A stretch of 64,000 bases of DNA from NCBI RefSeq assembly GCF_002776695.1, contig NZ_LFJC01000003.1:6063159-6127158 (forward strand), in the 5' to 3' direction. Below the pieces are notes generated by a model. It had not been told where the DNA came from. It made no database searches and saw nothing but the letters and a program-made list of their open reading frames with translations. The DNA is from Bradyrhizobium nitroreducens (lineage in GTDB: Bacteria > Pseudomonadota > Alphaproteobacteria > Rhizobiales > Xanthobacteraceae). A program made the translations under genes and the position numbers. Positions 3,799 through 52,187 of the stretch are shown piece after piece. Positions within the stretch are counted from its first letter, which is position 1. Every line of letters starts with the position of its first letter.

Positions 3799-3842
3799 GT
3801 CCCGGACGCGATGCAGCGTGAAACGCTGCGTCGCAGAGCCGG
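3799..3842. repeat. Left fragment of the palindromic repeat interrupted by IS110
   Basis: The segment GTCCCGGACGCG...CGCAGAGCCGG matches the first arm of the host repeat seen intact at 52051-52187. It stops at GAGCCGG, exactly where the IS110 element begins. Its continuation (GATCCATAACC...) is found on the other side of the element at 4953. Confidence 0.75.
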
Positions 3843-3848
3843 CAACTG

Positions 3849-4790
3849 TTATGTTGACGGTGCGACCTTATAGATTTTTCGGTCGCGCAGCATAGCGTTG
3901 AGGATGGTCAGCAGCTTCCTGGCGACAGCAATGAGGGCGAGCTTCGCTGGTTTGCCGGCTTGGCGCAGCCGGTCGTAAAAGGCCTTGAAGCGGTCGGCGC
4001 GGCGAATGGCGTTGAGAGCAGCCATGTAGAGGGCGTCGCGGACGCGCTTTCGTCCGCCGCCGATCTTGCGCTTGCCTCGATAAGCCCCGCTATCGACATT
4101 GAAGGGAGCCAGGCCGGCAAGAGCGGCCACTTCCTTCGGCCCGAGACGCCCAAGTTCGGGCATCTGGGTGAGGAGTTGCATGCAGGCGACGGGCCCCACG
4201 CCGGGCACCGAGCGCATCAGCTGTGCATCGTCCGCAAGCTCCGGCTCGGCTTTGACGAGCGCATTGATCTCGGTCTCGATTTCAGCGATCTCATAATTGA
4301 GGACCTCGATGAGGCGAGCGATGCGTTCCGCCATGGCGCGGTCCTCGGCTTCGCTGCGGCGGTTCTTTTCCTGGGCTCGCATAGCAACCAGTTGGTCCCG
4401 CCGTTTTGCAAGCTTTGCCAAAGCGTTGCGGGCGGGTGTCGCGGCCTGCTCGGTGGCGGGCTTCATGGCGCGGGCGAAGGCCGCCAGCATCTGCGCATCG
4501 ATCGGATCGGTCTTGGCGAGTTGGCCGCTGGCACGGGCAAAGTCGCGGGCACGGGCCGGATTGATACGGGCAAAGCGGATGCCGGCCCGATGCAGTGCCT
4601 CACGAAGCTCGAGGTCGTAGACCCCCGTAGCCTCGAAGACGACCAGCGCATCGCATCGCCAACGCGCCACCAGCTGTGTGATGGCGTGTGTCGCGTTGTC
4701 GATGCGTTCCGATACACCGACGGCCTCATCGAAAATATCGAGATGATGTTTGGAGACGTCGATTCCGACGCAACGAGAGGATATGATCAC
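3849..4790 (-). CDS. IS110-family transposase/recombinase
   Basis: Full-length 313-residue recombinase with no frameshift. The N-terminal RuvC-like DEDD domain has GIDVSK (D11), FEATGVY (E53) and KTDPIDA (D95, D98). A coiled region spans about 120-185. The C-terminal Tnp domain has SVPGVGP (194-200) and NVDSGAYRGKRKIGGG, with the presumed catalytic serine at S234. All residues expected for activity are present, so the element looks intact. IS110 enzymes work with a bridge RNA encoded in the element; the leader upstream of this gene fits that role (see the ncRNA entry). Confidence 0.95.
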   Translation of the reverse strand: MIISSRCVGIDVSKHHLDIFDEAVGVSERIDNATHAITQLVARWRCDALVVFEATGVYDLELREALHRAGIRFARINPARARDFARASGQLAKTDPIDAQMLAAFARAMKPATEQAATPARNALAKLAKRRDQLVAMRAQEKNRRSEAEDRAMAERIARLIEVLNYEIAEIETEINALVKAEPELADDAQLMRSVPGVGPVACMQLLTQMPELGRLGPKEVAALAGLAPFNVDSGAYRGKRKIGGGRKRVRDALYMAALNAIRRADRFKAFYDRLRQAGKPAKLALIAVARKLLTILNAMLRDRKIYKVAPST

Positions 4791-4794
4791 GGTG

Positions 4795-4925
4795 CCTGTC
4801 CCTGTGATGCGAGGTCTGTTGGCGCAGCCTCGTGCAACTGTTCAGGTTGTTGAATGGAACGGGCGGGAGACCGAGCCGGCTCACGGCGTCAAGCGCCAAG
4901 GACCCAACGGCTTCCCGCCCACCAT
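4795..4925 (-). ncRNA. Candidate IS110 bridge RNA
   Basis: The minus-strand leader folds into two loops. Target loop: outer stem GGGCGGGA/TCCCGCCC (4861-4868 with 4913-4920), inner stems AGCCG/CGGCT and GGCG/CGCC. Its 5' side carries TGGGTCC (4900-4906) and its 3' side GAGCCGG (4876-4882). On the minus strand the occupied site reads TGGATCC then CCGGCTC, so the left guide matches with one G-T wobble and the right guide is fully complementary. Donor loop: hairpin CGAGG/CCTCG (4810-4814 with 4828-4832), flanked by AACAGTTGC, identical to the right end, and CACAGG, complementary to the left end. RNA ends are approximate. Confidence 0.7.
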
Positions 4926-4952
4926 CATTATGACAGGCTTTTCAGACACAGG

Positions 4953-5050
4953 GATCCATAACCACCGTTGTTAGATTTGCGATGGCTGGAGCCAACAGCT
5001 TAGCCAAAAACCACGGTCTGTGGTTATGGGTCCCCGCGTTCGCGGGGACG
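4953..5050. repeat. Right fragment of the repeat interrupted by IS110
   Basis: Contains GATCCATAACCAC and, 70 bases on, the inverted partner GTGGTTATGGGTCCCC, followed by the small hairpin CCCCGCG-TTCG-CGGGG. It continues the host repeat whose first part lies at 3799-3842. The last bases overlap the 3' end of rimM. Confidence 0.7.
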
Positions 5051-52050: not shown

Positions 52051-52187
52051 CGTGCCCCGGACGCAGCGCAGCGTCACTTCGACGGTGCGCTGCTGAGCCG
52101 GGGCCCATGTCGCAGAGGAACTCGGGGCTCCTGGGTCCCGGCTCTGCGCCGCAACGCTCACGCGTTGCAGCTTGTCCGGGACACGAC
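52051..52187. repeat. Palindromic repeat, CCCCGGACGCAGCG family, with IS110 target motif
   Basis: Arms CGTGCCCCGGACGCAGCGC and GCAGCTTGTCCGGGACACG. It carries TGGGTCCCGGCTC at 52132-52144 and the inverted one-mismatch variant GAGCCGGGGCCCA at 52095-52107. This is the same family as the repeat interrupted by the IS110 element, and TGGGTCCCGGCTC is exactly the target its bridge RNA predicts. Confidence 0.8.

Follow-up and report, generated by a model that had tools for sequence, protein, structure and literature searches.

Among the closest described systems is IS621 of Escherichia coli, which encodes a DEDD and serine recombinase and, upstream of it, a bridge RNA consisting of a target loop followed by a donor loop. 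Its left guides are read in the same sense and its right guides in antisense, a dinucleotide core lies inside the guides, and handshake bases as well as catalytic residues including D102 and S241 have been described (PMC11208158). Furthermore, IS621 targets repetitive extragenic palindromes (REP) and forms a junction promoter at its joined ends (PMC11208160; both papers in excerpt). Insertion into such palindromes is likewise recorded for the IS110-family elements ISPpu9, ISPpu10, ISPa11 and ISRm19 in the excerpt of PMC1525189, and ISPa11 is treated as IS1111-type in that of PMC11187229. The latter source also describes ISEc21 and its seekRNA (Siddiquee et al.), an upstream RNA matching both target strands, and reports natural reprogramming for it.

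Within the window, i.e. the 64,000-nucleotide stretch of Bradyrhizobium nitroreducens DNA analyzed in this study, an intact IS110-group element of 1110 bp was found on the minus strand (Table 1); this size includes a single core copy, at the left end. The element is an IS621-type bridge-RNA insertion sequence in REP-like repeats, and hence a new member of an already known kind; a partial literature search, covering titles and abstract starts, returned no paper on this Bradyrhizobium element. It is highly probable that its bridge RNA guides insertion into a dispersed palindromic repeat. With a predicted bridge RNA, the features named above for IS621 other than the junction promoter recur in the window element, whose own junction promoter is putative. 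The order of the loops, the sense of the strands, the core and the catalytic residues agree with IS621; the initial annotation had noted this for the placement of left and right guides within each loop. Differences concern the core (CC versus CT in IS621), the left target guide, in which 6 instead of 7 bases before the core are matched, and the right end, which lies only 6 nt past the stop codon. Moreover, the IS621 RNA has a 5' stem loop, for which the window RNA would have no room, judged by the position of the putative junction promoter. Together with the 162 nt preceding the GTG codon, the short right end corresponds to the layout of the IS110 group (long left and short right non-coding end), IS1111 elements showing the opposite. 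ISPpu9, ISPpu10, ISPa11 and ISRm19 belong to other hosts and repeats and are likened to the window element by targeting, not by sequence. ISEc21, a different element with a different target, is likened by description, and ISCro4, the second solved structure matching the window recombinase, by the recombinase only.

Recombinase, ends and copies of the element

The recombinase carries both Pfam domains of the IS110 family and aligns to the recombinases of IS621 (PDB 8wt6, E 1.3e-35) and ISCro4 (PDB 9t56, E 4.9e-34). In the alignment, D11, E53, D95, D98 and S234 land on the catalytic positions of IS621, of which those besides D102 and S241 are positions that we take to be catalytic. The transposase had been annotated as complete, in agreement with its open frame and the placement of these residues. 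Recombinases of approximately 50% identity were observed in 13 plasmid records (12 from Sinorhizobium, e.g., NZ_CP088110.1, and one from Agrobacterium); those on Sinorhizobium plasmids are possibly related to the REP-targeting ISRm19.

On the minus strand, TGGATC-CC (4958-4951) leads into the element, which begins with CCTGTG (4952-4947) and closes with AACAGTTG (3850-3843), followed by CC-GGCTC (3842-3836). Direct reading of the sequence recovered the element as originally called (3843-4952), all strings named for it and the CC core at both junctions, which is kept in genus copies. In total, 77 distinct genus copies were compared, and the 71 with both ends read share the ends of the window element, with CC at both in 71/71; as ends were found by a motif admitting CC or CT only, copies with quite different ends would escape this comparison. 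Comparison of copies with empty sites revealed no target duplication and is in line with exchange at the short CC core shared by target and donor. Empty sites in relatives, a comparison suggested by the initial annotation, fit the ends of the element.

A second full copy in the same genome (copy 2) is 100% identical over 1110 bp and has the same two ends. At a third place (L003, C1, near 5026820), 71 right-end bases adjoin a run of 10 N, probably marking a gap that the assembly left across the element. Some DNA match to the element was obtained in 82 of 265 genus genomes, many matches being short. Since this genus-wide search scored at most two candidates per genome, copy numbers were taken from a deeper search of 21 of the 82, 12 of which contained two or more full or near-full copies. 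A class-level search of 385 genomes yielded, apart from the own genome, no relative at E <= 1e-75. It is unlikely that the element is a dead relic: the frame is open, all catalytic residues are present, the identical second copy has both ends intact and relatives harbor several copies per genome. Judged by these features, the element may be active.

Table 1. Features of the IS110-group element and its junctions, given in window coordinates.
Feature	Position	Strand	Basis or remark
IS110-group element	3843..4952	-	identical copy with the same ends elsewhere; empty sites in relatives
Recombinase gene, 313 aa, GTG start	3849..4790	-	Pfam DEDD_Tnp_IS110 and Transposase_20; D11, E53, D95, D98, S234
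Left core CC	4951..4952	-	sequence; CC in 77/77 genus copies (motif allowing CC or CT)
Right core CC	3841..3842	-	sequence; CC in 71/71 genus copies with right end read
Left target half TGGATC	4953..4958	-	from rimM-trmD intergenic repeat
Right target half GGCTC	3836..3840	-	from repeat upstream of SDR gene
-10-like CATAAT	4927..4932	-	would form a promoter-like pair, across the circle join, with TTG (3845-3843) and CCT (4952-4950)
Stretch holding both target guides	4861..4920	-	consensus fold of 17 leaders
Left target guide TGGGTC and core C	4900..4906	-	covariation; next base U opposite second core position
Right target guide GAGCC and core GG	4876..4882	-	covariation; next base C (4875) is the handshake base, opposite donor G7
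Stretch holding both donor guides	4795..4846	-	leader alignment, consensus fold
Left donor guide AACAGTTG	4835..4842	-	identical to right end 3850-3843 (sequence)
Right donor guide CACAGG	4801..4806	-	complements left end 4952-4947; G (4800) is the handshake base opposite target position 7

Bridge RNA, guides and target repeat

Based on a consensus fold of 17 leaders, picked for diversity from 45 distinct ones, a two-loop RNA with conserved stems is present in the left end. In this fold, 522 of 544 cells are paired, and two-sided changes occur in 13 of the 32 pairs of the whole RNA; the majority of these belong to the target loop, to its outer and its inner stem, and two to the donor-loop stem. 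The leader of the window element folds better than its shuffles (z = -2.75; 2 of 200 equally good); in the minimum-energy fold of this single leader, the target guides pair partly with each other. An Rfam search of the element region matched no family to the leader, the one match being a microRNA model at 3980-4073 on the plus strand with a score of 20.6 against a cut-off of 100.

Across the joined ends, TTG|CCT and CATAAT at a spacing of 17 bp reach 9 of 12 sigma-70 consensus bases, compared with a coding background having a mean of 5.6 and a 95th percentile of 7. Among 19 chosen elements, the same join-spanning promoter-like pair ranked first, alone or tied, in 15. Transcription from this junction promoter, if it occurs, would begin at the target-loop stem and yield an RNA below the 177 nt of IS621. 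The donor-loop stem comes within a few bases of the GTG start codon (window positions 4790-4810), which makes it overlap the likely ribosome-binding site; bridge RNA and recombinase mRNA may compete.

Read directly, the leader contains TGGGTCC (4906-4900), GAGCCGG (4882-4876), AACAGTTGC (4842-4834) and CACAGG (4806-4801). The two donor guides match the joined ends of the element. CACAGG complements the left end, as noted earlier, and the proposed match of the left donor guide to the right end holds too, but the ninth base, C, of the string then reported is the first core base. Both target-guide strings are present as described, but the occupied site cited for them is not one original target (see below). 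The left target guide places U opposite the second core base (U-G wobble), whereas the left donor guide places A there and so does not match this base. Regarding the handshake bases, C opposite donor G7 was found in 17/17 guide types, and G opposite target position 7 forms G-C in 15 types and a G-T wobble in two; as these bases are invariant, their agreement represents fit and not covariation. The donor guides are nearly invariant as well, so that covariation probes them solely in one copy (L176).

To read guides in relatives, the leaders of copies carrying the donor-loop anchor were stripped of their flanks and aligned, and each guide was taken from the columns that the guides of the window element occupy; these columns were fixed on the window element, and flanks were inspected by eye before the covariation test. 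The set comprised 107 distinct copies from 119 anchors, 12 having been dropped as repeats of identical flanks (likewise, 8 of 90 in the by-eye flank comparison). Contig-end fragments without the anchor were excluded, and the guide analysis left out loci at 45% identity or lower as well as L026-L032 and L042.

Among the 107 copies, 17 guide types were distinguished (10 left-guide and 11 right-guide types). On the left, guides matched their own flanks at 5.79 of 7 positions versus 3.86 for other types, and on the right at 4.25 of 5 versus 2.86. With guides shuffled among types 20,000 times, the observed match, left or right, was never reached, a result which, due to the shared descent of the 17 types, represents no exact probability. 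In a scan of 152 reading offsets, the difference between own and other peaked exactly at the left guide (1.93; next 0.44) and at the right guide (1.39; next 0.35), with wrong-sense controls reaching up to 0.54 and 0.39. The guide positions are thus the only strong scan peaks of the RNA, in the two expected senses, and guides follow the flanks of other insertions, the relationship on which the initial annotation had staked its reading.

Natural reprogramming is apparent in single copies. On the left, guide GTGAGACT lies beside flank ACGAGACT in L039 and beside GTGAGACT in L040, both of which combine right guide AAGGCC with flank GGCCTT; right guide TAGGCG accompanies flank CGCCTT in L115, and left guide GTGTGCAC occurs beside flank CGTGCAC in L173, L178 and L181. 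In L176, core CT replaces CC, in the guide too. The left flanks of L006 and L186 differ strongly from the guide. Within the genus, 72 of 77 copies with the left guide of the window element have the left flank TGGGTC and two have TGGATC, and GG follows core CC in 69 of the 71 copies with the right flank read. Outer right-guide positions are weakly enforced: the 61 copies with guide GAGCC include right flanks GGCTC (14), GGCCT (20) and GGATC (12). At target position 12, A occurs in 5/6 copies with guide GATCC versus 12/61 with GAGCC (Fisher p 0.003); three right ends of one genome (G079; L043-L045), excluded from this test as no leader could be joined to them, carry C there and weaken the contrast.

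The target TGGRTC-CC-GGCTC represents the edge of a dispersed repeat. The full motif TGGRTCCCGGCTC, which by eye begins a palindromic repeat, has 90 sites in the own genome versus one for the reversed control pattern; as a partial control of background, TGGGTCCCGGA sites were counted in four genomes. Genus copies occupy TGGGTC-CC-GG (left flank 72/77, right flank 69/71). An unoccupied, fully matching target, TGGGTCCCGGCTC, is located at 52132-52144 of the window.

It is very unlikely that the recombinase protein itself reads the palindromic repeat, the likeness of the leader being a by-product of insertion near repeats. By eye, many genus copies do sit at the edge of a repeat, an association with such repeats is on record for IS elements of five families, and for IS1397 and ISKpn1 the transposase is credited with target choice (PMC1525189, in excerpt). 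However, leader stretches covary with flanks over 17 guide types, and both covarying stretches occupy the known positions and senses of IS621. Moreover, L010 and L016 are without an obvious repeat by eye, yet TGGGGC or TGGGTC with CCGG is kept; L006 is a partial exception, in which neither repeat nor guide matches well. That the match arose by chance, or was read with hindsight into a stretch rich in GC and repeats, is hardly credible: the strings had been picked by eye in the initial annotation and TGGGTC-like words are common in the own genome, but the shuffle test, the offset scan and the compensatory stem changes speak against it. Guidance by the bridge RNA remains the preferred reading.

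Exchanged flanks of the two copies

The left neighbors of the window element encode 30S ribosomal protein S16 and RimM, and the right neighbor of copy 2 encodes TrmD (NCBIfam). For the gene left of copy 2, a weak NCBIfam match to a fused hydroxyacyl-ACP dehydratase lies below cut-off, so the label dehydratase-like is tentative. An empty site flanked by rimM and the SDR gene together was absent from the loci of 19 relatives, which led the search to flank exchange. In relatives, rimM adjoins trmD, 17 of 19 rimM loci matching the right flank of copy 2 too, and the sequence left of copy 2 precedes the SDR gene of the window in 6/6 relatives examined. These adjacencies indicate that the two copies swapped flanks.

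The occupied site in the window, TGGATC|CCGGCTC, is, judged by these comparisons, a hybrid combining the left half of one site with the right half of another. The original sites were likely TGGATC-CC-GGATC between rimM and trmD and TGGGTC-CC-GGCTC upstream of the SDR gene, the latter having 13/13 bases matched by a guide. Correspondingly, the empty rimM/trmD site TGGATCCCGGATC in L146 reads exactly TGGATC-CC-GGATC and that in L144 TGGGTC-CC-GGATC, and the empty SDR-upstream site TGGGTCCCGGCTC in L165 reads exactly TGGGTC-CC-GGCTC; variants of this site occur in L163, L166 and L167, and L164 is without it. The guide strings stand as first noted, but the statement that the left guide fits with one wobble and the right guide fully describes no single insertion event, because the cited site is composite after the exchange.

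As the two copies share one contig and the same strand, a single exchange cannot link the map to a single ancestral circle, and the flank swap involves further rearrangement or misassembly. Whether it is an assembly error or a real rearrangement is evenly balanced. Over their 1110 bp the two copies do not differ, the third copy at the 10-N gap indicates that the element did trouble the assembly, and the need for further rearrangement also points to an error. On the other side, the contig measures 8.17 Mb, the genome is rated 100% complete, and the two sites are oppositely oriented in two relatives (G023 and G087), so that an inversion between copies may have taken place, with a second inversion thereafter.

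Proposed mechanism, possible self-targeting and significance

Starting from the observed anatomy, ends, empty sites, guide-flank covariation and target repeat, a course of events may be proposed in which RNA expression, RNA-protein complex, strand exchange and circle are carried over from IS621. The element would excise as a circle, whose joined ends would give rise to a promoter, and the leader would then be transcribed to yield the bridge RNA. In its target loop, TGGGTC(C) and GAGCC(GG) would pair with the two strands of the dispersed palindromic repeat, and in its donor loop AACAGTTG and CACAGG would pair with the joined ends of the element. Finally, the DEDD/serine recombinase would swap strands at the CC core, resulting in insertion without target duplication.

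Since bridge-RNA elements contain a copy of the left target in the DNA of their left target guide, they would face a built-in self-targeting problem. In one relative (L184; G569, contig C21), a full element directly follows the leader of another copy cut at the left target guide, as though its own guide gene had served as the insertion site and the remainder had then been lost. In the guide of the Bradyrhizobium clade, the second core base is T in 73 of 77 copies, the genomic core being CC, and the other four (G241) have CC. That this T wobble is kept because it would spare the element's own guide DNA while the real target still pairs is a speculative and rather improbable explanation.

In a lineage far from E. 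coli, the element puts the bridge-RNA model to an independent, natural test, in which guides predict insertion sites over 17 guide types, among them changes of the whole guide and one change of the core. Its recombinase and RNA make up a compact pair that has a CC core and approximately 90 natural target sites in the own genome. Such elements in repeats can turn into exchange points, and here one has perhaps parted rimM from trmD. Its value lies in clean, naturally occurring data on guide-target covariation, complemented by a flank exchange and by a lead on self-insertion.
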